Source: Muribaculaceae bacterium (GTDB taxonomy: Bacteria; Bacteroidota; Bacteroidia; Bacteroidales; Muribaculaceae). From it: a stretch of DNA of 64,000 nt. Below are positions 4,597 to 61,223 of this stretch, one piece after another; position 1 is the stretch's first letter, and each line of letters begins with the position of its first letter. Made by a program: the position numbers and the translations under genes. The stretch covers positions 1-64,000 of the forward strand of contig JAFYYG010000017.1 of assembly GCA_017557625.1 (NCBI GenBank), read 5' to 3'. The notes beneath the pieces were generated by a model. The model searched no databases, had not been told where the DNA came from, and saw nothing but the letters and a program-made list of their open reading frames with translations.

Positions 4597-4645
4597 AGAT
4601 TTCAGATTTCAGACTTCTCGCATCTGATTTTTGACATCTGATTTC
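4597..4645 (-). repeat. Heptad array in the leader of tRNA-Ser(CGA)
   Basis: Between the tRNA promoter and the mature 5' end the sequence repeats with a 7-base period, with units such as AATCAGA and AAATCTG on the minus strand. It is a member of the dispersed heptad arrays found across this window. Confidence 0.5.
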
Positions 4646-4659
4646 TGTTTTTGCGGGTG

Positions 4660-4691
4660 CAAAGTTAGTGCTTTTTTCTTAATCTGTGCAA
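4660..4691 (-). promoter_or_regulatory. Promoter of tRNA-Ser(CGA)
   Basis: On the minus strand TTG (4691-4689), 21 bases and TAACTTTG (4667-4660) form a Bacteroidetes promoter, followed by CACCCGC. The same arrangement stands before tRNA-Ser(TGA). Confidence 0.7.
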
Positions 4692-4708
4692 GATTTTGCC
4701 GAAAATCT

Positions 4709-5353
4709 TTACAAATTGTAGAGAGTTTCGATAGCTTTGAGTGGGTCTTGGGCTTTAAAGACGTAATTTCCAGCCACAAGCACGTCGGCACCCGCATCGG
4801 CAAGTTGTTTGCCTGTAATATCATTCACACCGCCATCCACCTCAATCACAGCCTTTGAACCAGTCTCGGCTATGAGTGCACGAAGCTCACGCACCTTATT
4901 AAGGGTGTTAGGGATAAACTTCTGTCCGCCAAATCCAGGGTTCACCGACATGAGCAACACCAGATCGAGCTGTGCCACGATGTCGCGCAATAGACATACC
5001 GGCGTTGCAGGATTGATGGTTACACCAGCTTTCATGTCTGCATCGTGAATCTGTTGCACCACTCGGTCGAGATGGTTGCACACTTCGTAGTGCACATTCA
5101 TTATCTCGGCTCCACAGTCGCGCACCTCGTTAACAAACTTCTGCGGCTCGACAATCATCAGATGCACGTCAAGAGGTTTCTTGCAAAGCTGCTGCACATA
5201 TTTTATCACTGGAAACCCGAAAGAGATGTTTGGCACAAACACGCCATCCATCACATCTAGGTGAAGCATCTGCGCTTTGCTCTGGTTTATCATCTCCAGG
5301 TCGCGCGCAAGGTTGCCGAAGTCGGCACTTAATAAAGATGGTGATACTATCAT
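4709..5353 (-). CDS. rpe: Ribulose-phosphate 3-epimerase
   Basis: A 214-residue TIM-barrel enzyme that interconverts ribulose 5-phosphate and xylulose 5-phosphate in the pentose phosphate pathway. Family signatures are clear: SPSLLSADFGNL at the N-terminus, HLDVMDGVFVPNISFG with metal-binding His and Asp, DVHLMIVEP, VNPGFGGQKFIP, and EVDGGVN with the second catalytic Asp. The length is normal. The start at 5353 is ATG, directly preceded by a heptad array and a small palindrome. It is followed by tRNA-Ser(CGA) on the same strand and preceded by the dedA-like gene, probably within one transcript. Confidence 0.95.
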   Translation of the reverse strand: MIVSPSLLSADFGNLARDLEMINQSKAQMLHLDVMDGVFVPNISFGFPVIKYVQQLCKKPLDVHLMIVEPQKFVNEVRDCGAEIMNVHYEVCNHLDRVVQQIHDADMKAGVTINPATPVCLLRDIVAQLDLVLLMSVNPGFGGQKFIPNTLNKVRELRALIAETGSKAVIEVDGGVNDITGKQLADAGADVLVAGNYVFKAQDPLKAIETLYNL

Positions 5354-5406
5354 TTTTTAGTTCATAGTTAAGAGTTCATAGTTATTAGTTGCGATGACAT
5401 CGCAAC
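5354..5406 (-). repeat. Palindrome plus heptad array upstream of rpe
   Basis: On the minus strand a perfect 9+1+9 palindrome (5388-5406, arms GTTGCGATG and CATCGCAAC) is followed by five AACTNNN units (for example AACTAAT, AACTATG) that run almost to the rpe ATG. The same two-part design recurs at 9535-9578 and 50045-50104. Confidence 0.75.
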
Positions 5407-5415
5407 AGACGAGAC

Positions 5416-6186
5416 TTAGTCTTCTTTAGTTTCTATTTCTTTGCTCTTTTTGTTTTTCCTCACTTTATAGATAATGAAGATAATTACGGCGCCGAGGAGG
5501 ATGAAACCAGCTATCTTGAGATAGTGACTGTAGTGCTCAAGTTGAGCAAAGAGCTGACTATCGTCAGGAACCACACGGTAAAGGAGATATCCCAACAATG
5601 CCAAGACCACATTCCACAGTCCAGCACCAAGCACTGTGTAAAAGCTGAAGGTGCCGAAGTTCATGCGCGACAAACCGGCAGGAATAGAGATAAGGTGTCG
5701 CACGGCGGGCAGCAGGCGGCCAAAGAAGATGGAAATCGAGCCTTTGCGCCTGAAATAGTCTTCGGCATGCTCCAACTTCTCGCGGTTTAGAAGGAACATG
5801 TGCCCCACCTTGCTGTCGGCGAAAGCGTAGAATACTGGTCTGCCTATGAGCATCGAGAGACCGTAATTAATTGCCGAGCCAAGATAAGCGCCTATTGTGG
5901 CAGTGACAATCACGAGCCAAAAATTCAAGTCACTATTTGCCTGTAATGAGAAATAAGCAGCCGGTGGCACCACAACCTCGCTGGGCAACGGTACTATTGA
6001 ACTTTCTATTGCCATGAGAAGGATGATAGCCCAATAATTCATGTGCTCCTTAAACCAAAAGTACAGTTTCTCCGTCCACGACTGTTCAGTGGCGGCTTGT
6101 GCTGCATCCTGAGCGAAACATGCGTCGCTCATGAGCACAATCGCAACAAGTGCGAGCAGGAATAATATCGTTTTTTTACGGTTCAT
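5416..6186 (-). CDS. DedA family inner-membrane protein
   Basis: A 256-residue membrane protein from the ATG at 6186. A signal-like first hydrophobic segment (FLLALVAIVLMSDACFA) is followed by the DedA/SNARE-associated core: an amphipathic re-entrant region with ESSIVPLPSEVVVPPAAYF, several transmembrane helices, and the conserved FGRLLPAVRHLISIPAGLSRMNFGTF segment near residue 165. DedA proteins are linked to lipid carrier flipping and membrane homeostasis; the substrate here cannot be told. The C-terminus is lysine-rich (KVRKNKKSKEIETKED). The frame continues upstream to 6267, but a -7 box lies at 6286-6279, and the ATG at 6186 begins a normal signal sequence. Its predicted 5' leader contains the duplicated structured element. 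Confidence 0.88.
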   Translation of the reverse strand: MNRKKTILFLLALVAIVLMSDACFAQDAAQAATEQSWTEKLYFWFKEHMNYWAIILLMAIESSIVPLPSEVVVPPAAYFSLQANSDLNFWLVIVTATIGAYLGSAINYGLSMLIGRPVFYAFADSKVGHMFLLNREKLEHAEDYFRRKGSISIFFGRLLPAVRHLISIPAGLSRMNFGTFSFYTVLGAGLWNVVLALLGYLLYRVVPDDSQLFAQLEHYSHYLKIAGFILLGAVIIFIIYKVRKNKKSKEIETKED

Positions 6187-6198
6187 TTCGTTGTTCCT

Positions 6199-6271
6199 AA
6201 ATTTTAATAAAATGCTCACGTTCGCAAAGCATAGAGCAAGCTCAAGCTTTGACTCGCTTAATCGCATTTTT
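6199..6271 (-). repeat. Duplicated structured element, copy A (5' leader of dedA)
   Basis: A 73-nt sequence that recurs at 25161-25234 on the plus strand with nearly identical ends (AAAAATGCGATTAAGCGAG at the 5' side, GTGAGCATTTTATT at the 3' side). The central hairpin (6251-6225) pairs CAAAGC with GCTTTG around GAG-CTTG-CTC. It lies between the predicted transcription start and the ATG of dedA. Confidence 0.8.
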
Positions 6272-6278
6272 GCGACTG

Positions 6279-6286: not shown

Positions 6287-6297
6287 CAATATTTTTG

Positions 6298-6992: not shown

Positions 6993-7004
6993 CACGTTGC
7001 AAGC

Positions 7005-8057
7005 ATGAGAGAACTTGTTGACATATTGCGTGCTGAGCGGCACTTGGAGAGCAGCAGCTATAAAGCTCTGCTGGAGTGTGACAACGAGAGCGTTGTCGCC
7101 TATCTGCACGAGCAGGCCCGCGAGGTGGCGCAAGGGGTGTTTGGCAGAGGAATCTTCGTGCGCGGACTTGTGGAGTTGACCAATGTGTGCCACAACGACT
7201 GCTACTACTGCGGAATCCGCAAAAGCAATAGTAATGTTGAGCGATATATTCTCACCACCGAACAGGTGCTGCAAAGCTGCCAGCAAGGCTATGAACTTGG
7301 TTTCAGGACCTTTGTGCTGCAAGGCGGCGAACTGCCTCGCGACAAGGCACAGTGGTTAGTGGAACTTGTGAGCGAGATTAGGCAAAGGTGGAGCGACTGC
7401 GCCATCACCCTCTCACTCGGCGAGTGGCCAAGAGAGGTTTATGAGGCTCTGAAACATGCTGGCGCCGACCGTTACCTGCTTCGCCATGAGAGCCATAATG
7501 CCGAGCATTACGCCAAGTTGCACCCTGCCGACATGTCTCTCACTAATCGCCTTCAATGCCTGACGTGGCTCAAAGAGCTTGGTTACCAAGTTGGCACTGG
7601 CATTATGGTGGGGAGTCCGTGGCAGTCGCTTGACAACATCATGGAGGATATTGAGTTCATAGAGCAATTTAAGCCTCAGATGATAGGTTTGGGACCATTT
7701 GTACCGCAGCACGACACGCCATTTGGCAAGTCTGCTACTGGCAGTGCCGCGCTTACCTGCAAACTCTACAGCATCTTCCGCCTGATGTTTCCCAATGCCT
7801 TGATACCCAGCACTACCGCGATCAATACGATTGACACCAATGGCAGGATAAAAGGCATTATGGCAGGCGCAAATGTGGTGATGCCCAACCTCTCCCCTGC
7901 CAGCGTGAGGAGCAACTATGCCCTCTACGACGGCAAGGCCATCACCAACGCCGAAGCAGCCGAGGGAATAGCGCAACTCGAGACCCAACTCGCCACCATA
8001 GGCTACCACATAGACTGGAGCAGAGGAGACTTTAATCAATGTAAAATCAACAACTAA
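7005..8057 (+). CDS. hydE: [FeFe]-hydrogenase maturase HydE (radical SAM)
   Basis: A 350-residue radical SAM enzyme. The CX3CX2C motif that binds the [4Fe-4S] cluster is C62-HND-C66-YY-C69 (TNVCHNDCYYCGIRKSN). BioB-like features follow: LQGGELP near 105, and HESHNAEHYAKLHP near 163, where BioB/HydE proteins bind substrate. HydE works with HydG and HydF to build the diiron subcluster of the H-cluster. BioB (biotin synthase) was considered; the neighbouring hydG, hydF and hydA and the sequence details favour HydE. A strong promoter precedes the start at 7005. The last codons run into a heptad array that continues to hydG. Confidence 0.93.
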   Translation: MRELVDILRAERHLESSSYKALLECDNESVVAYLHEQAREVAQGVFGRGIFVRGLVELTNVCHNDCYYCGIRKSNSNVERYILTTEQVLQSCQQGYELGFRTFVLQGGELPRDKAQWLVELVSEIRQRWSDCAITLSLGEWPREVYEALKHAGADRYLLRHESHNAEHYAKLHPADMSLTNRLQCLTWLKELGYQVGTGIMVGSPWQSLDNIMEDIEFIEQFKPQMIGLGPFVPQHDTPFGKSATGSAALTCKLYSIFRLMFPNALIPSTTAINTIDTNGRIKGIMAGANVVMPNLSPASVRSNYALYDGKAITNAEAAEGIAQLETQLATIGYHIDWSRGDFNQCKINN

Positions 8058-8093
8058 AAAACTGATAACTCAAAACTAATAACTGATAACTGA
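8052..8093 (+). repeat. AACTNNN heptad array between hydE and hydG
   Basis: Six units of seven or eight bases (AACTAAAA, AACTGAT, AACTCAA and so on) run from the stop codon of hydE to three bases before the hydG ATG. The first unit includes the hydE stop codon. Confidence 0.8.
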
Positions 8094-8096
8094 TTT

Positions 8097-9534: not shown

Positions 9535-9578
9535 GTTGCGTTGACAACGCAACACACGTTACACACGTTACACACGCA
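9535..9578 (+). repeat. Palindrome plus 9-mer array between hydG and hydF
   Basis: A perfect 9+1+9 palindrome (9535-9553, arms GTTGCGTTG and CAACGCAAC) runs into three 9-base units (ACACACGTT twice, then ACACACGCA). The palindrome arms are the same as at 50045-50063, in an unrelated operon, and close to those at 5388-5406. Confidence 0.75.
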
Positions 9579-16215: not shown

Positions 16216-16262
16216 ACAGATGTCAGAAATCAGATTTCAGATAACAGAAATCAGATTTTAGG
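16216..16262 (+). repeat. TCAGNNN heptad array between the Wza-like and kinase genes
   Basis: About six seven-base units (TCAGAAA, TCAGATT, TCAGATA, ACAGAAA) fill the gap from just after the stop codon to three bases before the next ATG. Confidence 0.8.
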
Positions 16263-16264: not shown

Positions 16265-18466
16265 ATGGCAGAGAAAAAGAAATATGAGCAAGCACTGCCT
16301 GTGGGGTTTAAACTCACTGGCGGTTCACACGATTATTATATTGAACAAATACTCGGACAAGGCGGTTTCGGCATCACCTATAAGGTGAAGACACGCTTAA
16401 AAGCAGGTAACATTGGCATTGATGCTCATTTTGCTGTCAAGGAATATTTCCCTTCTGGATGCTGGCGAAATCCTGGCAACACAATGATGTTATATGCCCC
16501 CACTTCGGAGACAGATGTGAAATCTAGTCTCAAAGACTTTATCACCGAGGGACGCCGCTTGCAGCAGATATGCAATATAAACAATAATATAGTAAGCGTT
16601 AATGAGGTGTTTGAGGCCAACGGCACAGCATACTTTGTCATGGAATTTCTTTCGGGCGGAGATATCAGGCAATGGGTTCGTGACAACGGCGGGGCGATGA
16701 CTGAGGAGGAGATGATGAGTATTATAACGCCTATTGCCAACGCCGTGCAATGCCTTCACGACCACAACATGCTACACCTCGACATTAAGCCTGAGAACAT
16801 AGTGATGCGGCTGAGCGAGGATGGCTCACACCTTGTGCCTGTGCTTATCGACTTTGGAATTGCTGTGCACTTCGACGAGAAAGGATCTCCAACAACCACC
16901 AGCCCGTCAAAAGGTGTAACACAAGGCTACTCGCCAGTGGAGCAGTTTGCCGGCATCACACGGTTTGACCCACGGTTTGATGTGTATTCCCTCAGTGCTA
17001 CATGTTTCTACATGCTTACTGGCCAGGACCCCAAAAGTGCCTTTGATGTTACCAAATCCGACATCAGAGCATCCCTTAAGGGCCATGCAAGTAAAGGCAC
17101 CATCGATGCTATAGTTAATGGCATGTGCAAGGACGTTGTCCATCGCACCCCAACGGTCAACGACCTGCTTAATGCTCTTGTCATTGCTGCACCCAAAGAT
17201 GAGTCATCTGACGATGACAAACAAGAGACCAGGAGTCTTAATTATCTGCAAAGCGACATTCCTGTCGCAGCACTTAACAGCAGCGGGGATGCATCACTGC
17301 CAGTTAGCGAGCCTTATGAAACCACTGATGACGAACAGACCAAATCAAAGAAGCGCAAGATTTGGATTATTGCTTTATGTGTGGCAGCATTGTTAGGACT
17401 TGGCATTTGGGGAGCATCATCGCTCATCAAAGGTGGCGGAATCACAAAAGGCGGTAGAATAACTAAAGATGAAACTGAAGATGAAACGCAATTAGAAAAA
17501 CTCCTTAAAGACACAATATATAGTGAAGCCCTGTTGAAAGAAGCCCAAAGGGGCAACGCAGAGGCACAAAATCTGCTAGGAATTTGTTATGATAGAGGTA
17601 ATGGTGTTGAAAGAGACATTAATCAAGCATTAGAATGGTACCGTAAGGCCGCAGAGCAAGGATATGCCCGCGCGCAATTTAACTTGGGAAACTGTTATTT
17701 TTACGGTGAAGGTGTTGAAAAAGACTTGAAACAATCAGCAGTATGGTACCGTAAGGCGGCGGAGCAAGGAGACGCCATAGCGCAATGCTGCTTGGGTGGC
17801 TATTATTATAATGGCTGGGGTGTTGAAATAGACTATAAGCAAGCAGTTGAATGGTTCCGTAAGGCGGCGGAGCAAGGAAACGCCGATGCGCAATATAACT
17901 TGGGACAATGTTATAATGAAGGGCATGGTGTCATTAAAGACATAAACCAAGCAGTAGAATGGTACCGCAAGGCAGCTGAGCAAGGAATCGCCGAAGCGCA
18001 ATACTCCTTGGGGTGCAGTTATTATAGTGGTCAAGGTGTTGAAATAGACTATAATCAAGCAGTAGAATGGTTCCGTAAGGCGGCGGAGCAAGGAGTTGCC
18101 CTTGCACAATATAACTTGGGATGGTGTTATTATAATGGCATTGGTGTTGAAAAAAACTTGAAGCAAGCAGTAGAATGGTACCGTAAGGCGGCGGAGCAAG
18201 GATACGCCGATGCGCAATACTCCTTGGGGTACAGTTATTATAATGGTCAAGGTGTTGAAATAGACTATAATCAAGCAGTAGAATGGTTCCGTAAGGCGGC
18301 GGAGCAAGGAAACGCCGATGCGCAATGCTACTTAGGATACTGTTATGATGAAGGGCATGGTGTCATTAAAGACATAAACCAAGCCATTTTATGGTATCAA
18401 AAAGCAGCTCGTCAAGGAAACGTCTATGCACAACAGAACTTACAAAATTTGGGAGAGAGTTGGTAA
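16265..18466 (+). CDS. Ser/Thr protein kinase with one transmembrane helix and Sel1 repeats
   Basis: A 733-residue protein with three parts. Residues 1-300 form a eukaryotic-like kinase: glycine loop GQGGFG (31-36), ATP lysine K59 (FAVKEY), catalytic loop HLDIKPEN (171-178) and DFG (196-198). The usual HRD arginine is Leu172, so it is a non-RD kinase. Residues about 366-386 form a transmembrane helix. Residues 425-720 contain eight Sel1-like repeats of 36 residues (for example AVEWYRKAAEQG) and part of a ninth. Topology suggests a cytoplasmic kinase and periplasmic repeats that may bind protein or cell-wall ligands. It probably shares the promoter of the Wza-like gene, hinting at control of export; that link is inference. 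Confidence 0.9.
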   Translation: MAEKKKYEQALPVGFKLTGGSHDYYIEQILGQGGFGITYKVKTRLKAGNIGIDAHFAVKEYFPSGCWRNPGNTMMLYAPTSETDVKSSLKDFITEGRRLQQICNINNNIVSVNEVFEANGTAYFVMEFLSGGDIRQWVRDNGGAMTEEEMMSIITPIANAVQCLHDHNMLHLDIKPENIVMRLSEDGSHLVPVLIDFGIAVHFDEKGSPTTTSPSKGVTQGYSPVEQFAGITRFDPRFDVYSLSATCFYMLTGQDPKSAFDVTKSDIRASLKGHASKGTIDAIVNGMCKDVVHRTPTVNDLLNALVIAAPKDESSDDDKQETRSLNYLQSDIPVAALNSSGDASLPVSEPYETTDDEQTKSKKRKIWIIALCVAALLGLGIWGASSLIKGGGITKGGRITKDETEDETQLEKLLKDTIYSEALLKEAQRGNAEAQNLLGICYDRGNGVERDINQALEWYRKAAEQGYARAQFNLGNCYFYGEGVEKDLKQSAVWYRKAAEQGDAIAQCCLGGYYYNGWGVEIDYKQAVEWFRKAAEQGNADAQYNLGQCYNEGHGVIKDINQAVEWYRKAAEQGIAEAQYSLGCSYYSGQGVEIDYNQAVEWFRKAAEQGVALAQYNLGWCYYNGIGVEKNLKQAVEWYRKAAEQGYADAQYSLGYSYYNGQGVEIDYNQAVEWFRKAAEQGNADAQCYLGYCYDEGHGVIKDINQAILWYQKAARQGNVYAQQNLQNLGESW
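17554..18420 (+). repeat. Tandem 108-bp repeats encoding Sel1 units
   Basis: Eight in-frame units of 108 bases, many nearly identical at the DNA level around GGTAAGGCGGCGGAGCAAGG-like stretches. Units 5 and 7 are especially similar. Such DNA can change copy number by recombination. Confidence 0.85.
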
Positions 18467-20880: not shown

Positions 20881-20896
20881 CAAGCTAACAAGGCAA

Positions 20897-20951
20897 TGCG
20901 CTTCGCGCAGTTTAGAGTTTAGAGGGGAGAGTATAGAGGACTAAGGAGAAA
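20897..20951 (+). repeat. Mini-palindrome plus TTTAGAG heptads before rlmH
   Basis: TGCGCTTCGCGCA (20897-20909) is a small hairpin. It is followed by TTTAGAG, TTTAGAG, then diverged units (GGGAGAG, TATAGAG). A weaker TTATG-based 8-base pattern continues to about 20979. Confidence 0.7.
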
Positions 20952-21029
20952 AATTATGAACTTATGTTCTTATGTCTAAAAATGAAAACAAGAGCATTGT
21001 CGTTTCTGGTCGTTTGACTATACACTTGT

Positions 21030-21062
21030 CTCGTCAGCTCGTCAGCTTGTTCGCTCGTCAGC
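21030..21062 (+). repeat. CTCGTCAG octad array before rlmH
   Basis: Four 8-base units, three identical (CTCGTCAG) and one diverged (CTTGTTCG), end 20 bases before the rlmH ATG. Related octads occur at 48332 and 55523. Confidence 0.8.
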
Positions 21063-21082
21063 AATTAAGCAAACTATAAATT

Positions 21083-25250: not shown

Positions 25251-25285
25251 AACTAATGACTGATAACTAAAAACTAAAAACTATT
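25251..25285 (+). repeat. AACTNNN heptad array upstream of the GH31 promoter
   Basis: Five seven-base units (AACTAAT, GACTGAT, AACTAAA twice, AACTATT) end three bases before the -7 box, so this array lies in the promoter rather than in the transcript. Confidence 0.8.
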
Positions 25286-32045: not shown

Positions 32046-32068
32046 TTATACTTAGCACGGCGAAGCCC

Positions 32069-32101
32069 ACTTAACACTTATAACTTAACACTTATGACTT
32101 A
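32069..32101 (-). repeat. TAAGTNN heptad array overlapping the 3' end of rlmD
   Basis: On the minus strand the units TAAGTCA, TAAGTGT, TAAGTTA and TAAGTGT continue in register through the last codons and the stop of rlmD. The C-terminal residues SHKC are thus encoded by repeat DNA. Confidence 0.75.
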
Positions 32102-33494
32102 GAAGGACCACATTTTCCACATGGTGGGTGTGCGGGAACATATCCACCGGCTGAACCGCATCTACTCGATATTTCACGTCGAGCATTGCGAGGTCGCGGG
32201 CCTGGGTGGCGGGGTTGCAGCTCACATATACAATTCGTTTGGGCTCGGCATCGAGAATCACCCTCACCACATCCTCGTGCATTCCGGCACGTGGCGGGTC
32301 AACAATCATCACATCGGGGATGCCATGCTGCGCTACAAACTCGCCCGTGAGCACATCTTTCATGTCGCCAGCATAGAACTTAGTGTTTGTGATGCCGTTG
32401 ACGTGAGAGTTGAGTTTTGCATCCTCAATCGCCTCTGGCACATACTCGATACCTATCACCTCACGAGCCTGACGAGAGACGAAATTGGCGATTGTTCCCG
32501 TGCCAGTATAGAGGTCATAAACAAGCTCATTACCCGTGAGTCCAGCAAAATTGCGTGCCACCTTATATAATTCGTAGGCCTGCTCGCTGTTGGTCTGGTA
32601 GAACGATTTGGGACCCACGCGGAACTTGAGCCCCTCCATCTCCTCCTCAATGTAGTCGCGACCGCTATAAAGGATAAACTCCTGGTCGTTGAGCGAGTCA
32701 TTGACCTTGAGGTTAATGACATACATGAGAGAGGTAATCTGAGGGAACTTGTCCTTGATTGCCCACATCACATTGTCGATGGCAGTCTGATTATCCTCAC
32801 TGAAGACCACCACGAGCATAATCTCCCCAGTGCTGGCAGTGCGCACCATCATCATGCGCATAAATCCTACATTGTTGCGGATGTCGTAGAACGAATAGCC
32901 TTGCTCTTGGGCATAGTCGCGCAGGAATAGGCGGATCTGGTTACTGATATCATCCTGAAGCCAGCATTTCTCAATGTTTAGCACCTTGTCAAAGCCGCCG
33001 GGGATGTGGAAGCCCACAGCATTGCGGTTGGGGAACTCCTCGCCGCTCTGCATCTGCTCGGTGGTGAGCCAGCATTTGTTGCTAAATGTGAACTCGAGCT
33101 TGTTGCGGTAGAAAGTCGTCTTTTTCGAGCCAAGAATTGGCGATATTTCGGGCAGCGGCACTTTGGCGATACGCTCCAAGGCATCGACCACCTGCTGCTG
33201 CTTGCATTTTAGTTGGTATTCGTATGGCAGATGCTGCCACTTGCAGCCGCCGCACACGCCAAAGTGCTGGCACATAGGCTCCACGCGCACTTCACTGGGT
33301 TTGATGAGTTTATCAATCACCCCTTCGCAAAAACTATGCTTTTTACGGGTAATCTTAACACGAGCAATGTCGCCCGGCGCACCGTAAGGCACAAACACCA
33401 CCATGTCATTCCAGCGCCCTAAGCTCTTGCCCTCAGCGGCCACTCCAGTTATCTCAAAATCCTCCAACAGAGGCAAATTCTTTTTCTTTCCCAC
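32085..33494 (-). CDS. rlmD: 23S rRNA (uracil1939-C5)-methyltransferase, RlmD/TrmA family
   Basis: A 469-residue enzyme. The N-terminal TRAM domain (residues 1-65) is followed by an Fe-S motif, CQHFGVCGGCKWQHLPYEYQ near 75-95, and a C-terminal class I methyltransferase with VYDLYTGTGTIANFV near 320, MIVDPPRAGMHEDV near 395 and the catalytic VSCNPATQARDL near 425. It methylates U1939 (or a related uracil) of 23S rRNA; Bacteroidales often carry more than one paralogue, so the exact base is not certain. The start is GTG 33494, with a TAnnTTTG box (TACCTTTG) at 33534-33527. Confidence 0.9.
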   Translation of the reverse strand: MGKKKNLPLLEDFEITGVAAEGKSLGRWNDMVVFVPYGAPGDIARVKITRKKHSFCEGVIDKLIKPSEVRVEPMCQHFGVCGGCKWQHLPYEYQLKCKQQQVVDALERIAKVPLPEISPILGSKKTTFYRNKLEFTFSNKCWLTTEQMQSGEEFPNRNAVGFHIPGGFDKVLNIEKCWLQDDISNQIRLFLRDYAQEQGYSFYDIRNNVGFMRMMMVRTASTGEIMLVVVFSEDNQTAIDNVMWAIKDKFPQITSLMYVINLKVNDSLNDQEFILYSGRDYIEEEMEGLKFRVGPKSFYQTNSEQAYELYKVARNFAGLTGNELVYDLYTGTGTIANFVSRQAREVIGIEYVPEAIEDAKLNSHVNGITNTKFYAGDMKDVLTGEFVAQHGIPDVMIVDPPRAGMHEDVVRVILDAEPKRIVYVSCNPATQARDLAMLDVKYRVDAVQPVDMFPHTHHVENVVLLSHKC

Positions 33495-33682: not shown

Positions 33683-33685
33683 GAA

Positions 33686-33715
33686 GATATCAGTTGTCAG
33701 ATTTCAGATATCAGA
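33686..33715 (-). repeat. Heptad array in the leader of tRNA-Ser(TGA)
   Basis: Units TCTGATA, TCTGAAA, TCTGACA and ACTGATA on the minus strand lie between the promoter and the mature tRNA 5' end, as at tRNA-Ser(CGA). Confidence 0.65.
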
Positions 33716-35058: not shown

Positions 35059-35062
35059 GAGT

Positions 35063-35112
35063 TTTCAGATATCAGTTTTCAGATATTGGTTATCGGTTTT
35101 TAGTTCTTACTT
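35063..35112 (+). repeat. NNTCAGN heptad array between dnaN and the exonuclease gene
   Basis: Units TTTCAGA, TATCAGT, TTTCAGA, TATTGGT and TATCGGT repeat with a 7-base period and decay towards the next gene. Confidence 0.75.
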
Positions 35113-35130: not shown

Positions 35131-35928
35131 ATGCAACTTAATCTAAAACGCCCCATCATCTTCTTCGACTTGGAGACGACGGGGCTTAATATCACCAAAG
35201 ACCGCATCGTGGAAATATCGCTCATCAAGGTCTATCCCGATGGTCACGAGGAGGAGAAGACTCGCCGCCTAAACCCCGAGATGCACATTCCAGAGCAGGC
35301 AAGCGCAGTACATGGCATATACGATGAGGACGTGAAGGACTGCCCTACTTTCAAGCAGGTGTCGAAGAGTCTTGCCCAGATTTTCGAGGGCTGCGACATT
35401 GGTGGCTTTAACAGCAACCGATTTGACATTCCTGTGCTGTCACAGGAGTTTTTCAACGCGGGCATCAAGTTCGACTTCAACAAATGTAAATTTATTGACG
35501 TGCAGACCATCTTCCACAAGATGGAGCCTAGAAACCTCATTGCTGCTTATAAATTCTATTGTGGCAAAGACTTGGAGAAAGCCCACTCGGCAAGTGCCGA
35601 CACCCGTGCCACTGTCGAGGTGCTGAAGGCACAACTTGACCGCTATAGCGACGAGTTGCAGAACGATGTGGAGTTTCTGTCAAGCTATTCAAGCCAAAAC
35701 CGCAACGTCGATCTAGCTGGACGCATCATCCGCAACGATCAGGGCGTGGTGGTGTTCAACTTCGGACAACACAAGGGTGAGAGCGTAGAGGAAGTACTCA
35801 CCAAGACTCCGCAATACTACGACTGGATTCAGAACCGCGACTTCGCCGAGGACACCAAAAACGTACTCCGCGAAATCTACATCAAAATGAAACAGCGCAA
35901 CAGCACTGGAACAATACAGTTTAAGTAG
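35131..35928 (+). CDS. DnaQ-like 3'-5' exonuclease
   Basis: A 265-residue DEDDh exonuclease. Exo I is FFDLETTGLN (D12, E14), Exo II is GGFNSNRFDIPVL near 90, and Exo III is AHSASADTRATVEVL near 152 (His and Asp). The C-terminal part has an extra domain with VVFNFGQHKGESVEEVLTKTPQYYDWI, seen in Bacteroidetes homologues. It may act as a proofreading or repair nuclease. It lies between dnaN and coaBC on one strand. Its last Lys codon and stop codon form the first unit of the following TAAGTNN array. Confidence 0.88.
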   Translation: MQLNLKRPIIFFDLETTGLNITKDRIVEISLIKVYPDGHEEEKTRRLNPEMHIPEQASAVHGIYDEDVKDCPTFKQVSKSLAQIFEGCDIGGFNSNRFDIPVLSQEFFNAGIKFDFNKCKFIDVQTIFHKMEPRNLIAAYKFYCGKDLEKAHSASADTRATVEVLKAQLDRYSDELQNDVEFLSSYSSQNRNVDLAGRIIRNDQGVVVFNFGQHKGESVEEVLTKTPQYYDWIQNRDFAEDTKNVLREIYIKMKQRNSTGTIQFK

Positions 35929-35977
35929 TAAGTGTTAAGTAATAAGGACAAAGGATAAAAGTTAAAGGACATAGTTT
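35922..35977 (+). repeat. TAAGTNN/AAAGGNN heptad array between the exonuclease gene and coaBC
   Basis: Eight seven-base units in perfect register, from TAAGTAG (which contains the stop codon) and TAAGTGT to AAAGGAT and AAAGGAC. The array changes gradually from a TAAGT to an AAAGG core. Confidence 0.85.
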
Positions 35978-47339: not shown

Positions 47340-48257
47340 ATGAGAAGTATTAAAAAGATATTGCTGACTGCTGTGGCAGCGTTTTGTTGCCTGGGTGTTA
47401 GTGCACAGGAGTTGAATTGCACCTTTGATGTAGACTCTAAAAAGGTGAAAAATGCCAACAAGGACATTTTCAACACTTTGAAGGAAGCTGTCAACGAGTA
47501 CCTCAACACCACTGTGTGGACCGATGCGCAGTTTGCTGTCAACGAAAAGATTGAGTGCAAGATGTTCTTGACAGTCGCCGAGTATGACGAGTCAAACGGC
47601 ACAATGAAGGGCGATCTTCAGATTCAGAGTTCGCGACCAGTGTATAACAGCACTTATACCACTACCCTTATCAACTTCAAGGACACCCGCGTGGAGTTCA
47701 CCTACGACAATAACGAGCAGCTCATCTATAATGAACAGGAGATGCAGAGCAATCTCACGGCGATTCTAAACTTCTATGCGTTACTTGTCATTGCGATAGA
47801 TTTCGACTCTTTCGCACCCAACGGCGGCGACCCTTACTACGATAAGTTGGAGAACATCGTACGAATGGCACAAAGCAGCGGCGAGAGCGGCTGGAAAGCC
47901 TTTGAGGACTCAAAGAACCGCAGTGCGATTTTGAGTGCCTATACCGACAAGCAGACATCAGCCATCCGTGATGTAATCTACAACTACCATCGCCAAGGAC
48001 TCGACCAGATGGTGACCAGCGTTGACAAAGGCCGAGCAACCATCACCCAGCAGATGGAGACTCTGAAATCAATCTACGACGTAGCGCCAATGTCGGTTTG
48101 CCTATCAATGTTCAAAGATGCCAAACTTGACGAGCTAGTGAACATCTACTCCAAGGCCAACAGCACCGAGAAGGAAAAAGTCTATGAGTTGCTCTATCCC
48201 CTCTATCCAACCGAGACCGAACGCCTAAACAAAATCAAAAACACGGAGCAGAGATAA
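47340..48257 (+). CDS. porD: DUF4835 family protein (PorD, type IX secretion)
   Basis: A 305-residue exported protein from the ATG at 47340. The signal peptide (ILLTAVAAFCCLGVSAQ) leads to a DUF4835 body: QELNCTFDVDS near the N-terminus, FNTLKEAVNEYLNTTVWTDAQF, SSRPVYNSTYTTTLINFKD, ALLVIAIDFDSFAPNGGDPYY near 160, and SMFKDAKLDELVNIYSKA near the end. This family is annotated as PorD, a periplasmic factor of the type IX secretion system; the symbol rests on that equation. It normally lies between coaBC and recN in Bacteroidales, but here coaBC is 10 kb away. Its stop codon starts a heptad array. Confidence 0.8.
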   Translation: MRSIKKILLTAVAAFCCLGVSAQELNCTFDVDSKKVKNANKDIFNTLKEAVNEYLNTTVWTDAQFAVNEKIECKMFLTVAEYDESNGTMKGDLQIQSSRPVYNSTYTTTLINFKDTRVEFTYDNNEQLIYNEQEMQSNLTAILNFYALLVIAIDFDSFAPNGGDPYYDKLENIVRMAQSSGESGWKAFEDSKNRSAILSAYTDKQTSAIRDVIYNYHRQGLDQMVTSVDKGRATITQQMETLKSIYDVAPMSVCLSMFKDAKLDELVNIYSKANSTEKEKVYELLYPLYPTETERLNKIKNTEQR

Positions 48258-48289
48258 GTGTTAAGTGTAAAGTTTTAAGGGTCAAGTGG
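48255..48289 (+). repeat. TAAGTGT heptad array starting on the porD stop codon
   Basis: TAAGTGT twice, then AAAGTTT, TAAGGGT and CAAGTGG: five seven-base units in register, the first beginning with the TAA stop. A small GC palindrome-like stretch (GGCTGCGCCC) follows. Confidence 0.85.
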
Positions 48290-48331
48290 CTGCGCCCATA
48301 AAAGTGTTAAGCGCGAATTTACAATTGCCTA

Positions 48332-48363
48332 GTTTGCTTGTTAGCTCGTCAGCTTGTTAGCTT
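48332..48363 (+). repeat. GTTAGCTN octad array before recN
   Basis: Four 8-base units (GTTTGCTT, GTTAGCTC, GTCAGCTT, GTTAGCTT) end seven bases before the recN ATG. They are related to the octads at 21030 and 55523. Confidence 0.8.
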
Positions 48364-48370
48364 CTAAAAT

Positions 48371-50044: not shown

Positions 50045-50104
50045 GTTGCGTTGTCAACGCAACTCAACACGTCGCTCACTAAAACTTAACACTTTACACT
50101 TAGA
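50045..50104 (+). repeat. Palindrome plus ACTTNNN heptad array between recN and rlmB
   Basis: A perfect 9+1+9 palindrome (50045-50063, arms GTTGCGTTG and CAACGCAAC), a 13-base spacer, then CACTAAA, ACTTAAC, ACTTTAC and ACTTAGA up to four bases before the ATG at 50109. The palindrome arms equal those at 9535-9553. Confidence 0.8.
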
Positions 50105-55522: not shown

Positions 55523-55562
55523 TTGTCAGCATGTTAGCTCGTCAGCTCGCTAGCTAATAAAC
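55523..55562 (+). repeat. NNGTCAGC octad array in the leader of the M49 gene
   Basis: Five 8-base units (TTGTCAGC, ATGTTAGC, TCGTCAGC, TCGCTAGC, TAATAAAC), related to those at 21030 and 48332. Confidence 0.8.
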
Positions 55563-55589: not shown

Positions 55590-57647
55590 ATGAAGAAAAC
55601 ATTAATTGCCGCTGCTGTTGTGGCACTGGCATCAACAAGCATTGCTATGGCACAAAACAGCAATTTCAACTACAATGTGGACCGCTTTGCCGACATCGAG
55701 GTGTTGCGCTATCAGGTCCCTGGTTTTGACGATTTGACCCTTCAACAGAAGAAGTATGTCTATTACCTCACCGAGGCAGCCCAGCAGGGCCGTGACATCC
55801 TCTTTGACCAGAACGGCAAGTACAATCTGGTGATTCGCCAAGTACTCGAGGCGATGTACACCAACTACAAAGGCGACCGCTCGAGCGCCGATTTCAAGGG
55901 CCTTGAGAAGTACCTGAAGCAGGTGTGGTTCGGTAATGGCATCCATCACCACTATTCTCAGGACAAGTTCGTGCCTGAGTTCTCACAGGAGTTTTTCAAC
56001 GCCGAGTACAAGAAGTTGCCGCTTGAGGCACTGCCCATCCAGTCGTGCGACAAGTGCTCTAAGGAGAAGAAATGCGACAAGGCCGATGAGCTGCTCGCAA
56101 CCCTCGACAAGGTGATTTTTGACCCCACCTACATGGCCAAGCGTGTGAACCAAGCCGATGGTGAGGACCTGATTGTCACCAGTGCCAACAACCTCTATGA
56201 GGGCGTCACCCAGCAAGAGGTGGAGGACTTCTACAACGCTATGAAAGACCCCAACGACGAGACTCCCATCTCTTATGGCCTCAACTGCAAGGTGGTTAAA
56301 GAAGACGGCAAGGTGGTTGAGAAACAGTACAAGATTGGCGGACTTTATAGCAAGGCTATCGTCAATATCGTTTACTGGCTCCAGAAGGCCGCCAGCGTTG
56401 CCGAGAACAGTGCGCAGAAGGCCTATATCGCCAAACTCATCGAGTACTACACCACCGGCGACCTCAAGGCGTTTGACGACTACAGCATCATGTGGGCCGA
56501 GGAGACAAACGGCACTGTGGATTTCATCAACGGATTTATCGAGAGCTACGGTGACCCTCTGGGCATGACCGCCAACTGGGAAAGCATCGTAAACTTCAAG
56601 AACAAAGATGCGTCGATTCGTTCTAACCTCATCAGTGGCAACGCTCAATGGTTTGAGGACAACTCGCCCGTTGACAACCGTTTCAAGAAACAGAACGTGA
56701 AAGGCGTGAGTGCCAAGGTTATCACCGCCGCCATCCTTGCCGGCGACAGCTATCCCTCAACTCCTATCGGCATCAACCTGCCAAACAGCAACTGGATTCG
56801 CGCTGCTCATGGCTCGAAGTCGGTATCTCTGGAAAACATCACCGATGCCTACGACGAGGTGGCAAGCGGAACAGGATTCAACGAGGAGTTTGCCTACAGC
56901 GACACCGAGGTGCAACTAATGAAGAAGTATCTCACTCTCGCCGACAAGCTGCACACCGACCTCCACGAGTGCCTCGGCCACGCCAGCGGCCAACTGCTGC
57001 CAGGTGTTGACCCCGACGCTTTGAAGGCTTACGGCTCAACCCTTGAGGAGGCTCGCGCTGACCTATTCGCGCTTTACTATCTTGCCGACCCCAAACTCAT
57101 TGAGCTTGGCATCTTCAAAGATGCCGACACCTATAAGGCAGAGTACTACAAGTACATTATGAACGGCCTTATGACCCAGCTCACCCGCATCGAGCCGGGC
57201 AAGGACATCGAGGAGGCTCACATGCGTAACCGCAAGCTCATCAGCGAGTGGTGCTACCAAAAAGGCAAAAAGGCCAAGGTGATTGAATACGTGAAGGACA
57301 AGAAAACTGGCAAGACTTACATCAAAGTCAATGACTATCAGAAACTGCGCGGACTCTTCGCCGAACTCCTTGCTGAGATTCAGCGCATCAAGAGCGAAGG
57401 CGACTTTGAGGCTGGACGCAAACTAGTGGAGACTTACGGTGTAAAGGTTGACCCAAAAATCCATGCCGAGGTGCTCAAGCGCTATGAGTCGCTGAACATC
57501 GCTCCTTACAAGGGCTTTGTGAACCCAGTTTATCATGTGGTTAAGGATGCCAGTGGTGACATCAAGGACATCACCATCAGCTACGACGAGAACTACATCG
57601 ACCAGATGCTCCGCTACGGCCGCGACTACTCGCCACTGACGAAGTAG
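55590..57647 (+). CDS. Dipeptidyl peptidase III-like metallopeptidase (family M49), exported
   Basis: A 685-residue peptidase. The signal peptide (LIAAAVVALASTSIAMAQ) is followed by an M49 body. The zinc motif is H459-ECLG-H464 (TDLHECLGHASGQLLPG), the HExxGH form of this family, with the second motif EEARAD near residue 487 (EExRAE/D). DPP III enzymes remove dipeptides from the N-terminus of short peptides; human DPP III is cytosolic, while this copy should be periplasmic. A Cys-rich spot (SCDKCSKEKKCDKA) near 152 is unusual. A strong terminator follows. Confidence 0.9.
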   Translation: MKKTLIAAAVVALASTSIAMAQNSNFNYNVDRFADIEVLRYQVPGFDDLTLQQKKYVYYLTEAAQQGRDILFDQNGKYNLVIRQVLEAMYTNYKGDRSSADFKGLEKYLKQVWFGNGIHHHYSQDKFVPEFSQEFFNAEYKKLPLEALPIQSCDKCSKEKKCDKADELLATLDKVIFDPTYMAKRVNQADGEDLIVTSANNLYEGVTQQEVEDFYNAMKDPNDETPISYGLNCKVVKEDGKVVEKQYKIGGLYSKAIVNIVYWLQKAASVAENSAQKAYIAKLIEYYTTGDLKAFDDYSIMWAEETNGTVDFINGFIESYGDPLGMTANWESIVNFKNKDASIRSNLISGNAQWFEDNSPVDNRFKKQNVKGVSAKVITAAILAGDSYPSTPIGINLPNSNWIRAAHGSKSVSLENITDAYDEVASGTGFNEEFAYSDTEVQLMKKYLTLADKLHTDLHECLGHASGQLLPGVDPDALKAYGSTLEEARADLFALYYLADPKLIELGIFKDADTYKAEYYKYIMNGLMTQLTRIEPGKDIEEAHMRNRKLISEWCYQKGKKAKVIEYVKDKKTGKTYIKVNDYQKLRGLFAELLAEIQRIKSEGDFEAGRKLVETYGVKVDPKIHAEVLKRYESLNIAPYKGFVNPVYHVVKDASGDIKDITISYDENYIDQMLRYGRDYSPLTK

Positions 57648-57692
57648 CGCTTCGCGCGTGGAAAGTGAAAAGTGGAAAGTGGAACGGAAGAG
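57647..57692 (+). repeat. Mini-palindrome plus GTGGAAA heptads after the M49 gene
   Basis: GCGCTTCGCGC (57647-57657) begins on the last base of the stop codon. It is followed by GTGGAAA, GTGAAAA, GTGGAAA and GTGGAAC in register, which lead into the terminator stem. Confidence 0.8.
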
Positions 57693-57747: not shown

Positions 57748-58290
57748 ATGACACAAGAATTTAGGAAGGAGTTTTTTGCTTATCGCAATGGCATTGTTGC
57801 TGAGCTGTTACGCTCGGCAGGTGACCCACACACCATGATAATGGGCTGCCAACTTGCCGATGTTATAGCCATAACCAGCCGATACGAGAAAGACGCACGG
57901 CTGGCGCAAGCGCTGTGGGATGACGCCCACCACCGCGAGTGCCGCATGGCGGCAACGATGCTCTACCCTATTGAGAATTTTGACATGGCGATCGCCCTCG
58001 CCTGGTGCCAAAGCGTGGAGTCCACCGAGATTGCCGACATTCTCTGCCACCGCCTCCTGCGCCACCTCGACTACGCCACACAACTCTGGCAGCAACTTCA
58101 CGATAGCGACCAACCATTGGCACAATACACCGCCTATCGCCTCCTCCTCAACCTCATGCTGATGAATAGAATAGAAAAAACCGCCGAGATACGCTCGATG
58201 ATAAAAAAAGACCTAACCACTGCCCCACCATCCCTGCGACAACTGCTGGAAAGTATCGCAGAGGAGATGAATGGGAATCACTGTATATGA
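57748..58290 (+). CDS. HEAT/AlkD-like helical protein, possible DNA alkylation repair homologue
   Basis: A 180-residue, all-helical protein from the ATG at 57748. The segment RNGIVAELLRSAGDPHTMIMGCQLADVIAITSRYEKDARLAQALWDDAHHRECRMAATML resembles short Bacteroidales proteins annotated as DNA alkylation repair (AlkD-like HEAT repeats), where pairs of helices wrap DNA. The aromatic and acidic catalytic residues of AlkD are not obvious, so it may be a diverged or non-enzymatic member. The frame extends to 57658 through repeat and terminator DNA, which is unlikely to be coding. No promoter is clear. Confidence 0.6.
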   Translation: MTQEFRKEFFAYRNGIVAELLRSAGDPHTMIMGCQLADVIAITSRYEKDARLAQALWDDAHHRECRMAATMLYPIENFDMAIALAWCQSVESTEIADILCHRLLRHLDYATQLWQQLHDSDQPLAQYTAYRLLLNLMLMNRIEKTAEIRSMIKKDLTTAPPSLRQLLESIAEEMNGNHCI

Positions 58291-59649: not shown

Positions 59650-59683
59650 AATGTTTTTTAGTTAATTGTATAAATAAAGAAAG

Positions 59684-60184
59684 TTATTTTACTTTTTTGT
59701 CACTAATTCTCTTTCTTTTCGCTTGTTTGATCTTTCTTGCGCAGTCGTTGCACACGCCATAGACAGTGAAATTATAATATGATGTGGTGAAAGCAGGAAA
59801 CCTACGGGCGTTCATATAAGCCATGAAATTAGTGTCTTTTACCAGTTTCACTTTCCCGCAATGCTCACACATGAGGTGGATGAAAGACACATTGTCGGCC
59901 CTCTCGAAATGGCTGCGGTTCTCTACACTGAATTGCCTAAACACTCCCGCCTCGACAAGCAGCAGCACTGTGTTATAGATTGTGGCCTTGCTCACTATGA
60001 AATTCTTGTTCGACAAAGCCTCCACAAGATCCTCAACCGTGAACTGCCTGCTGAACTCCAGAGCACTCTCTAATATCATAGAACGCTCGGGGGTGCGGCG
60101 TTTACCATTGTCTTTCAAGAATTTATCGAAATTCTCGATAACGACGCTGTCGGGCAGGGTATCAGTGACTTTCTTATTACGCAT
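59684..60184 (-). CDS. Fur-family transcriptional regulator
   Basis: A 166-residue repressor from the ATG at 60184. The winged-helix domain (GKRRTPERSMILESALEFSRQFTVEDLVEAL, SKATIYNTVLLLVEAGVFRQF) is followed by a dimerisation domain with two CxxC zinc pairs (LMCEHCGK near 98 and CNDCARK near 142) and His residues for a regulatory metal. Whether it senses iron, zinc or peroxide cannot be decided. It heads a pair with the DUF1015 gene. Confidence 0.9.
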   Translation of the reverse strand: MRNKKVTDTLPDSVVIENFDKFLKDNGKRRTPERSMILESALEFSRQFTVEDLVEALSNKNFIVSKATIYNTVLLLVEAGVFRQFSVENRSHFERADNVSFIHLMCEHCGKVKLVKDTNFMAYMNARRFPAFTTSYYNFTVYGVCNDCARKIKQAKRKRISDKKVK

Positions 60185-60232
60185 CAATAGGAATATATAA
60201 AAACAAGCGAGTTTCTAAAAGAGTTTGTCTCT

Positions 60233-60253
60233 CTCTAAACTCTAAACATAAAC
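60233..60253 (-). repeat. TTTAGAG heptads before the Fur-family gene
   Basis: On the minus strand GTTTATG, TTTAGAG and TTTAGAG repeat between the nucleotidyltransferase stop and the Fur-family gene; the same unit occurs before rlmH. Confidence 0.7.
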
Positions 60254-60262
60254 TTCAAGTCA

Positions 60263-61165
60263 TTAGAACATCTTGTCGGGATAAACTCCCTGGCGGTGCA
60301 GCTCGGCGAATTTCTCTACCACTGCTGGACGGTCTTCGCTGTAGGTCACGCCAAACCATTTAGAATCGGTGCGCAGCACCTCAACTGTCGATTGCCCGCC
60401 CTCTACAAGCTCACTGACGGTCAGAGGAATAAAGAACTCGCTCTTGGGCACATTGATGCTTTGGTTGAGGAAGTTGACGAACGATTTCTTACTATGCTCG
60501 AAATAATCGGGAGTAAAGCCCCAGAAGTTCATCGACACAGGAGTATCTGGTTCGAGTTTTTCCACCAGGTCGCCCTCGGTGAAAACGATGTCATGGTTCT
60601 CGTCGTAGCCGATCTTGGTGCGCTCCACCACGCTCTTGAGCAGCCCGTTCTCGGTCTCGCACACGCCACGCGACACTGTGCCGCTCTCGCTCATGGTGTT
60701 GCCCACGTTGAAGCCCACCATGAAATAGCGGTCGTGAGAGTCGTCGGGCAGGTCGCTCAACGCCTTCGCCAGCACCTCAAAGGAGTTGCGGCCGTAGAAG
60801 TCATCGCTGTTGATGACCGCAAACGGCTCCTTAATCACATCCTTGCCCATAAGCACGGCATGATTGGTGCCCCAGGGCTTGGTGCGGTCCTCAGGGCAGG
60901 TGAATCCCTCGGGCAGAGCATCAACCGACTGGAAAACCACCTCGGTGGGAATCTTGCTCTCATATTTCGAGAGAATCTTGTCACGGAACTCCTGTTCGAA
61001 GTCTTTGCGAATTACAAACACCACTTTGCCGAATCCGCTGTGGATAGCATCGTAGATGGAATAGTCCATGATGGTCTCGCCGTGAGGGCCCAGACCATCG
61101 AGCTGCTTGAGACCGCCATATCGGCTTCCCATACCAGCAGCAAGAACGAATAATGTAGGTTTCAT
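60263..61165 (-). CDS. Sugar-phosphate nucleotidyltransferase (NTP_transferase fold)
   Basis: A 300-residue enzyme. The N-terminal LFVLAAGMGSRYGGLKQLDGLGPHGE has the LAAGxGxR nucleotide-binding motif; PWGTNHAVL near 98 and FAVINSDDFYG near 115 (metal-binding Asp) are typical of the GalU/RmlA-like superfamily. The C-terminal part (MNFWGFTPDYFEHSKKSF) resembles Bacteroidales homologues found next to galactokinase. The exact sugar is not certain; the galK neighbour suggests a role in galactose or UDP-sugar metabolism. The gap to galK is filled by a palindrome and heptads. Confidence 0.85.
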   Translation of the reverse strand: MKPTLFVLAAGMGSRYGGLKQLDGLGPHGETIMDYSIYDAIHSGFGKVVFVIRKDFEQEFRDKILSKYESKIPTEVVFQSVDALPEGFTCPEDRTKPWGTNHAVLMGKDVIKEPFAVINSDDFYGRNSFEVLAKALSDLPDDSHDRYFMVGFNVGNTMSESGTVSRGVCETENGLLKSVVERTKIGYDENHDIVFTEGDLVEKLEPDTPVSMNFWGFTPDYFEHSKKSFVNFLNQSINVPKSEFFIPLTVSELVEGGQSTVEVLRTDSKWFGVTYSEDRPAVVEKFAELHRQGVYPDKMF

Positions 61166-61168
61166 ATA

Positions 61169-61223
61169 TAAGTGTTAAGTTGTAAGTGTTAAGTGTTAAG
61201 TAGGGACAAGGCGTGCCTTGTCC
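61169..61223 (-). repeat. Palindrome plus heptad array between galK and the nucleotidyltransferase gene
   Basis: A 20-bp palindrome (61204-61223, arms GGACAAGGC and GCCTTGTCC) is followed, in the minus direction, by five seven-base units (ACTTAAC, ACTTACA, ACTTATA types; TAAGTGT on plus) that end four bases before the ATG at 61165. Confidence 0.85.

Follow-up and report, generated by a model that had tools for sequence, protein, structure and literature searches.

The window and its intergenic arrays

The window examined here is the whole 64,000-nucleotide stretch at the start of contig JAFYYG010000017.1 of the Muribaculaceae bacterium assembly GCA_017557625.1, which amounts to 3.05 Mb in 76 contigs; the nearest named records to the window are rumen assemblies labelled Prevotellaceae, Bacteroidales or Muribaculaceae. 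Many of the gaps between its genes hold tandem arrays of short units, mostly of 7 bases. The initial annotation of the window rightly described these arrays as intergenic, of period 7, with a fixed core and a variable remainder and with a unit that differs between genes. It was silent on the two properties with which we are chiefly concerned: the arrays close to genes nearly always read outward from the nearest gene end, and arrays overrun stop codons.

Several arrays lie at the ends of genes. These are TTTAGAG on the stop side of the gap 20881–21082 (20909..20947, +), TAAGTGT over the stop codon of the minus-strand gene 32085–33494 (32068..32094, −; from −17 to +17 around the end of the stop codon), TCAGTTN/TCAGATN following the stop codon at 35058 (35060..35112, +), TAAGTNN over the stop codon of gene 35131–35928 (35922..35966, +), TAAGTGT over that of the gene ending at 48257 (48250..48286, +) and GTGGAAA past the stop codon at 57647 (57658..57684, +). 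A TCAGATN array (16217..16255, +) runs from the stop codon at 16214 to the ATG at 16265. Ahead of genes are AGTTCAT/AGTTNNN, preceding the start of the minus-strand gene 4709–5353 (5358..5390, outward word on +), AACTGAT, filling the gap 8058–8096 up to the ATG (8060..8094, outward word TCAGTTA on −), ACACTTA before the ATG at 50109 (50080..50101, −; outward TAAGTGT) and TAAGTGT before the start of the minus-strand gene 60263–61165 (61169..61201, outward word on +). Octads occur as GTCAGCTN ahead of the ATG at 21083 (21030..21072, −) and upstream of that at 55590 (55524..55555, −), and as GTTAGCTN ahead of the ATG at 48371 (48329..48363, −). An AACTNNN array (25252..25283, −) lies immediately upstream of TAACTTTG, which we take to be a promoter-like motif. 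Two tRNA leaders are occupied as well: in the 5' leader of tRNA-Ser(cga) the array scan found a GT-type followed by a CA-type array with TCAGAT words (4597..4651, no strand assigned), and in that of tRNA-Ser(tga) there is a TCAGATN array (33685..33715, +).

Tandem Repeats Finder and our own scan detected arrays at nearly all of the sites listed by the initial annotation. Its array at 15063 has to be given up, since only two AGTT words are present and the stretch is kept in four relatives. The one at 60233 has only 2.1 copies, and the one at 57658 lies within a true gap if, as seems probable, the next gene starts at the ATG at 57748. The octads are real at 21030, 48329 and 55524, but arrays of period 8 are scarce (2 under the strict criterion).

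The period-7 signal

The material from this genome consisted of the window and 40 further 20-kb stretches, making up a first sample of 464 kb and a second of 400 kb. It was compared with stretches of eight genomes of the same genus and with 80 named Bacteroidota loci; all comparisons are between species, with one genome per species. Genes were called by a simple longest-open reading frame rule (≥80 amino acids, trimmed to the first ATG) in place of a gene finder, and array score cut-offs vary between analyses from 8 to 14.

When the 46 gaps of the window (5.9 kb) were compared with 100 dinucleotide shuffles, their autocorrelation was raised at lags 7 (z = 5.1), 14 (z = 3.9) and 21 (z = 2.9). 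Lags 8 (z = 2.2) and 9 (z = 3.6) were also elevated, as was the short lag 2 (z = 5.3), and lags 5, 6 and 10–12 lay between −1.0 and 1.3. The gaps of the first sample, set against 20 shuffles, gave z = 18.8, 13.0 and 12.3 at lags 7, 14 and 21, with lesser rises at lags 2 (13.1), 3 (13.6), 9 (10.0) and 8 (6.2); those of the second gave 16.1, 5.8 and 6.9 at lags 7, 8 and 9. The coding sequence of the window has the lag-3 series and no lag-7 excess. At the strict cut-off the first sample holds 49 period-7 arrays in 54.5 kb of gaps, compared with 0.0 per shuffle and with 4 in 409 kb of genes. Strict arrays of periods 4–6 and 8–13 number 0 to 4 each in these gaps, and the 34 of period 14 are a harmonic of 7. 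With a looser cut-off, 125 of the 537 gaps of both samples contain a period-7 or -8 array, covering 6,270 of 92,314 gap bases. The initial annotation had staked its claim that such arrays fill many gaps on an excess over shuffles at lag 7 or 8; the lag-7 excess is present in the window and in both samples, and the observation stands. With a period 7 beyond chance in gaps and not in genes, the arrays belong to the class of intergenic tandem heptamers.

Words and unit patterns

A list of ten words, drawn up by eye from the first sample, covers 62 of its 69 arrays at ≥6 of 7 letters, whereas random units match in 25%; part of this excess is built in, because the list was drawn from the same arrays. 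The counts are TCAGTTA 16, TAAGTGT 13, AATGCAC 8, GATCGGG 6, GTGGAGA 5, AGTTCAT 4, GGTTATT 4, TTTAGAG 3, TCAGATG 2 and GAGGGAA 1. A listed word was found in 30 of the 47 arrays of the second sample, which had not been seen when the list was made. Gaps with two arrays carry the same word on both sides in only 6 of 25 and 2 of 24 cases, as would two independent ends, and hairpin pairing of the two arrays of a gap is therefore rejected as a general rule.

Identical neighbouring units are rarer than in unit shuffles in the first sample (31 of 314 against 50 expected, P<0.001); in the second (28 of 227 against 33 expected, P=0.13) the difference is not significant. They are commoner than in shuffles in the genus genomes G009 (22/70, P=0.001) and G010 (8/35, P=0.004) and in the set of distant Bacteroidota L024-84 (35/157, P=0.04), and neither clearly commoner nor clearly rarer in G001, G011, G041 and the set L011-16. 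The arrays of our genome tend to alternate, with unit identity higher at a lag of two units (14 bases) than at lag 7; this is not so in G009 and G010.

Outward polarity

We call an array outward if its word reads away from the nearest gene end, sense past a stop and antisense ahead of a start; arrays without an assigned word were excluded from word-based counts. Among word-assigned arrays ≤15 bp from a gene, 46 of 48 are outward in the first sample (7 of 69 arrays without a word) and 21 of 22 in the unseen second (17 of 47 without a word), or 67 of 70 together. The proportion is 22 of 26 in five other genomes of the genus (21 of 49 arrays without an assigned word) and 9 of 11 in the set L005-23. 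Single words behave alike: within 15 bp of gene ends in the first sample the TCAGTTA/TAACTGA-like word is outward in 9 cases and inward in 1, and GATCGGG is outward in 6/6 and 5/5 in the two samples. The per-genome table of arrays and polarity for the genus omits L121, L122 and L124 (G038, G035).

The polarity does not depend on the word list. A test made without it gave 50 versus 3 in our genome (in 200 random flips the difference never exceeded 22), 28 versus 6 with 6 ties in the other genus members (largest flip difference 19), 19 versus 3 in L005-23 (200 flips, differences up to 15) and 16 versus 3 with 9 ties in L024-84, where flips reached 13, the observed difference. Words from stop sides predict the orientation of start-side arrays in our genome (17 versus 1, 1 tie), in other members of the genus (13 versus 1) and in L005-23 (5 versus 0, 4 ties). 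Convergent gaps are informative because no start codon borders them; there, outward exceed inward arrays by 13 to 5 within 15 bp and by 7 to 2 at 16–60 bp (20 to 7 over 0–60 bp). In divergent gaps the figures are 6 to 1 near genes, 3 to 1 at 16–60 bp and 5 to 4 beyond. Where opposed core runs adjoin, judged without gene calls, the GT-type precedes the CA-type in 22 of 22 and 2 of 2 cases, i.e. 24 of 24, with core sets that were picked after the arrays had been seen.

Base composition was considered as the cause of the polarity. Array-free leaders are slightly G+T-rich when read outward (0.562) and array-free gaps past stops have no G/T excess (0.474), so that composition could account for the start side at most.

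Contact with gene edges and stop codons

Within the co-directional gaps of the first sample, 28 of 54 arrays start ≤10 bp from the end of the stop codon and 19 of 54 end ≤9 bp from the start codon, two of them overlapping it. Near genes the stop-side arrays outnumber those on start sides (32 versus 16 word-assigned). In 19 genes of this sample the array lies over the stop codon; 7 of these arrays start in its last two bases and the other 12 extend back by 7 to 23 bases, a count that takes in the stop codon. When the register of an array is fitted with the stop codon left out, it predicts that codon's letters better than those of permuted stops in our genome (0.412 versus 0.331, P=0.0013) and in the genus (0.587 versus 0.471, P=0.0007), and at 0.488 versus 0.446 (P=0.06) in the other sets. 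The codon preceding the stop is not predicted. At the gene end at 8057, one of nine ends compared, the protein ends in GDFNQCKINN in the window and in GDFLMHNA, encoded by an array, in G010.

Turnover between species

Ten array gaps and eight array-free gaps of the window were compared with orthologous gaps of the window's relatives. For the array gaps this gave 25 pairs with flanks 77–91% identical, and the relative has an array in 9 of them. Gap-sequence similarity is 0.45 in these pairs compared with 0.38 for shuffles; the array-free gaps (19 pairs) reach 0.72 compared with 0.52. Gap length is correlated between species for array gaps (Spearman 0.61) and array-free gaps (0.69). The suggestion of the initial annotation that the arrays act as spacers is thus consistent with the lengths of array gaps, but array-free gaps keep their lengths likewise.

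Words change from species to species at the same gap. The gap 61166–61232 has TAAGTGT in the window, TCAGATG/TCAGTTA in G011 and neither in G001 and G010. The array of 5354–5415 is kept in G001 with about one more unit, AGAGGAG words stand there in G010, and G011 has no array; that at 50080..50101 has more units in G001, other words in G010 and none in G011; and the gap 8058–8096, with AACTGAT in the window, has AATGCAC units in G010. The two sides of a gap may change separately. In 20881–21082 G001 has similar words on the stop side but AACTNNN heptads in place of the start-side octads; in 48258–48370 it is the start-side octads that are similar and the stop side that differs (AGTTCAC words in G001). 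The GT-CA pair of the tRNA-Ser(cga) leader at 4597 is absent from the same leader in G011 (L116). In G010 (L114) the tRNA-Ser leader has a different inverted-repeat insert of about 70 bp at the spot of the window's heptad pair.

Distribution in the genus and candidate enzymes

Runs of four AACT cores at period 7 were found in 83 of 101 genomes of the genus, with 0 to 443 matches each, and 18 have none. These counts are of overlapping pattern matches and not of arrays, and the reversed control pattern gave zero in 74 of the 101 genomes and up to 43. In the phylum at large a match was found in 168 of 395 genomes, often together with matches to the reversed control. G024, G054, G062 and G107 match the control pattern (TCAANNN runs), i.e. 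they carry a different word class. No period-7 array was found in 68 gaps of G012, and its co-directional gaps are shorter (median 33.5 bp in 54 gaps, versus 84 bp in 435 gaps); G010 has few arrays, yet its co-directional gap median is 72.5 bp. On a one-protein tree of 26 genus genomes, remaining from 30 that were picked as extremes of the 101 and of which 26 could be matched (three as partial proteins), the labels rich and poor need 4 changes, at least 3 by well-supported branches. Relatives may differ widely in matches, as do G042 (214) and G094 (none), or G096 (443) and G010 (13), with support of 85–89% for the two pairings. The genus thus offers close relatives with and without arrays, among which a genetic cause can be sought by comparison.

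RVT_1 reverse transcriptase was matched in 43 of the 101 genomes, and pattern-match counts do not differ with its presence (Mann-Whitney P=0.37); of the 58 genomes without a match, which are incomplete, 18 have ≥100 pattern matches. Y1_Tnp was matched in 92 of 101, with a rank correlation to pattern-match counts of 0.11 (P=0.27), and is unmatched in the incomplete genomes G023, G102 and G058, whose pattern matches number 78, 78 and 29. Neither enzyme is associated with these counts, and both were rejected as the cause. The arrays accordingly do not show the dependence on Y1 that marks REP/RAYT elements, nor the reverse transcriptase expected of a telomerase-type system, tested for RVT_1 only. 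Ku was matched in none of the 101 genomes, which speaks against scars of Ku-dependent end joining.

A palindrome, GTTGCGNTGNCANCGCAAC, is present in three gaps of the window (5388–5406, 9535–9553 and 50045–50063), each time beside filler before a start codon, and at 9 sites in our samples, 4 of them ≤30 bp from an array. Palindromes in general occur in 8 of 73 array gaps and 15 of 160 array-free gaps; they are not enriched, and we do not regard them as a fixed part of the arrays.

Relation to known heptamer repeats

The initial annotation knew of no description of such repeats in Bacteroidales, an order to which, we assume, Paludibacter belongs. The heptanucleotides of Calothrix are presumably those named STRR. 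What follows refers to the passages on short repeats in the papers cited. Contrary to the initial annotation, MacGregor 2015 (PMC4679880) lists TAACTGA repeats in five Bacteroidetes including Paludibacter. In Beggiatoaceae, Cyanobacteria and some Bacteroidetes these repeats are mostly found just before starts. Our arrays include the same word, which reads TCAGTTA outward, as direct repeats near starts in the same direction (a TCAGTTA/TAACTGA-like word is present in 16 of 69 arrays); the word is reversed after a stop in one of her Bacteroidetes genomes, and its distribution is strain-specific. There, related heptamers are rarely or never repeated, whereas here TAACTGA is one of many words with one polarity, AACTNNN variants are common and overlapping matches to the AACT-core pattern reach 443 in a single genome of the genus.

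The G-rich heptamers described by Rehm et al. 2015 (PMC4692102), GGGAATC in Xanthomonas and GGGGA(T/C)T in Nostoc, have the nearer gene on their 5' side whatever the orientation of that gene. They too are intergenic with period 7, lie on the coding strand past stops and the non-coding strand before starts, overlap stop codons and, in Xanthomonas, form convergent pairs. GATCGGG, always outward in our samples, shares the short gene distance on the 5' side of the G-strand. Each of those genomes has one quadruplex-forming word type, and the Xanthomonas locations are more conserved than controls; this genome has about ten words, differing between species at the same gap and mostly without G-tracts, and by their sequence TAAGTGT, AGTTCAT and TCAGTTA would not be expected to form quadruplexes. 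A polarity this strict, which holds for words lacking G-tracts as well, speaks against interpreting the arrays purely as quadruplexes or as sites of one regulator, and it points to how they are made. The Calothrix heptanucleotides mentioned by the same authors are likewise tandem, with several words in one genome, a likeness by description and not by sequence. Heptamers are the most abundant intergenic tandem period in many prokaryotes, with "no clear clue" to function (the SPADE survey, PMC6344855; see also Mrazek 2007, as cited in PMC4679880); those passages do not mention outward polarity or joined arrays of different words. The passages of PMC3733652 on palindromic repeats contain no heptamer arrays.

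Heptamer repeats are therefore already known and unexplained, and what appears to be new here is the polarity shared by many words, the independence of the two sides and the turnover within a genus. In the open-licence library searched we found no statement that many different words of one genome share a polarity, that the words on either side of a gap are unlike and are exchanged independently, or that close relatives within one genus gain and lose the trait.

A possible origin of the arrays

We tentatively favour the reading that each array is a patch with a direction, built from a gene edge into the gap, with outward-reading 3' ends extended by short-homology copying. Of the three ideas in the initial annotation, the trace of slippage or templated repair comes closest to this. 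The DNA between two genes would break, or a 3' end be exposed there, and the end would be trimmed back, the survivors being cells in which trimming stopped near a stop or start codon; repeated rounds would wear the gap down to the gene edges. In many genes the arrays do set in at or over the stop codon and finish a few bases short of the start codon. The outward-reading 3' end, whose orientation is observed, would then grow in 7-base steps: a 4-base core such as AGTT would anneal to units of its own word already in place, and copying would add the following triplet and core, from which a common core, variable triplets and a single orientation would follow. Both extended ends, often with different words as seen in the gaps, would finally be joined, presumably by a route other than Ku, which has no match in the genus; slippage and loss of units would reshape the array afterwards. 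No benefit to the cell need be assumed. RecA is reported to prefer TGG repeats (PMC3763553); such a preference could go with tails that are GT-rich when read outward, but not with AATGCAC. We prefer extension of outward 3' ends because the polarity and pair order, the unlike words on each side, the one-sided replacements and the contact with gene edges all accord with a process acting at two ends.

Several points weigh against this reading. Polarity is weaker in convergent than in co-directional gaps, and beyond 15 bp from genes it is weak or absent (7 versus 7 in the first sample, 5 versus 3 in the second). In the distant Bacteroidota L024-84 the fixed word list shows no rule within 15 bp (8 outward, 10 inward), and stop-side words barely predict start sides (4 versus 3, 4 ties). 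Richness in G and T is not universal among outward words, AATGCAC being A/C-rich. Pairs with the same word are somewhat above chance in the genus (6 versus 2.6 expected, P=0.03). Full agreement of the stop codon with the array consensus in register is limited to 2 of 34 arrays in our genome and to 6 of 23 and 8 of 28 in other sets, so that neither priming by the stop codon nor supply of it is general, and of the nine gene ends compared between species the majority show no change. A gradient of age along the arrays was sought, and the change in unit quality differs in sign between sets. Nor are the arrays points of rearrangement: gene order is broken in 36 of 60 observations with an array and 24 of 43 without.

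The chief rival is that chance heptamers grow by slippage during replication or by unequal exchange, a length of seven being favoured through the footprint of the polymerase (an idea of Mrazek 2007, cited in PMC4679880), with selection on transcripts sorting the orientation: C/A-rich unstructured leaders before starts, G/U-rich sequence after stops. We hold this to be possible but somewhat doubtful. Heptamer excess is widespread in prokaryotes (PMC6344855), Cyanothece strains differ mainly by 7-nt steps (PMC4679880), and the G+T richness of array-free leaders and the excess of identical neighbours in G009, G010 and L024-84 agree with it. Slippage alone predicts identical neighbouring units, yet in our genome these are rarer than in shuffles, significantly so in the first sample, and identity is higher at lag 2. 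A small number of words comes back at unrelated loci, as judged from the arrays from which they were chosen; array-free gaps have no G/T excess after stops, and the polarity persists in convergent gaps. Bacteroidota rely little on Shine-Dalgarno sequences, which, together with the arrays that end close to or overlap start codons, would suit functional translation or transcript elements that bind a regulator or the ribosome. MacGregor 2015 put forward such a role for TAACTGA, which is mostly just before starts in the Guaymas Maribeggiatoa genome (PMC4679880). This we consider improbable: stop-side arrays outnumber those at starts, orthologous genes swap words or have no array, arrays also occur in two tRNA leaders, and some genomes of the genus manage without them (18 of 101 have no AACT run, and G012 has no array in its 68 gaps). 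The related proposal of the initial annotation, tuning of re-initiation, could fit C/A-rich arrays before starts but fits neither convergent polarity (20 of 27) nor word swaps.

The invariable GT-then-CA order would make an orientation-free element, and with the palindromes between some arrays and the pair that one tRNA leader has and its counterpart in a relative lacks it recalls mobile REP- or MITE-like elements, inserted ready-made as GT-array, palindrome and CA-array and moved by Y1 (RAYT-type) transposases. Such an origin appears slightly less probable than a functional one, as palindromes are about equally common in array and array-free gaps, paired arrays are mostly of different words, and the Y1 matches neither correlate with pattern-match counts nor extend to all the (incomplete) array-bearing genomes. 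Polarity and pair order also resemble end-to-end fusions of telomeres, as though a telomerase-like reverse transcriptase copied a 7-base RNA template onto DNA ends. This is very improbable and for RVT_1-type enzymes largely refuted by the (incomplete) genomes rich in pattern matches and unmatched for RVT_1; about ten words per genome would, moreover, demand as many templates.

If extension of outward 3' ends is the correct reading, much of what lies between genes in such genomes would be filler of recent, rewritten origin, and the array-making process would shape leaders and some C-termini. It is a more speculative and rather unlikely extension that the heptamer arrays of several phyla are products of one directional process, independent of Ku and RVT_1, which extends 3' ends outward from gene edges in 7-base steps using the genome's own dictionary of words, so that gaps are repeatedly worn back and rewritten and the trait toggles between close relatives.

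Additional observations

In the loci L011–L016 AGTTTAG arrays are several times flanked by GCTCGC and GCATCCGC motifs, resembling a standard module; the GCATCCGC motif has 34 sites in our own samples, none of them ≤30 bp from an array. Lastly, the window contains a 108-bp tandem repeat at 17603–18384, inside gene 16265–18466, the unit of which resembles what we take to be Sel1-type helical repeats.

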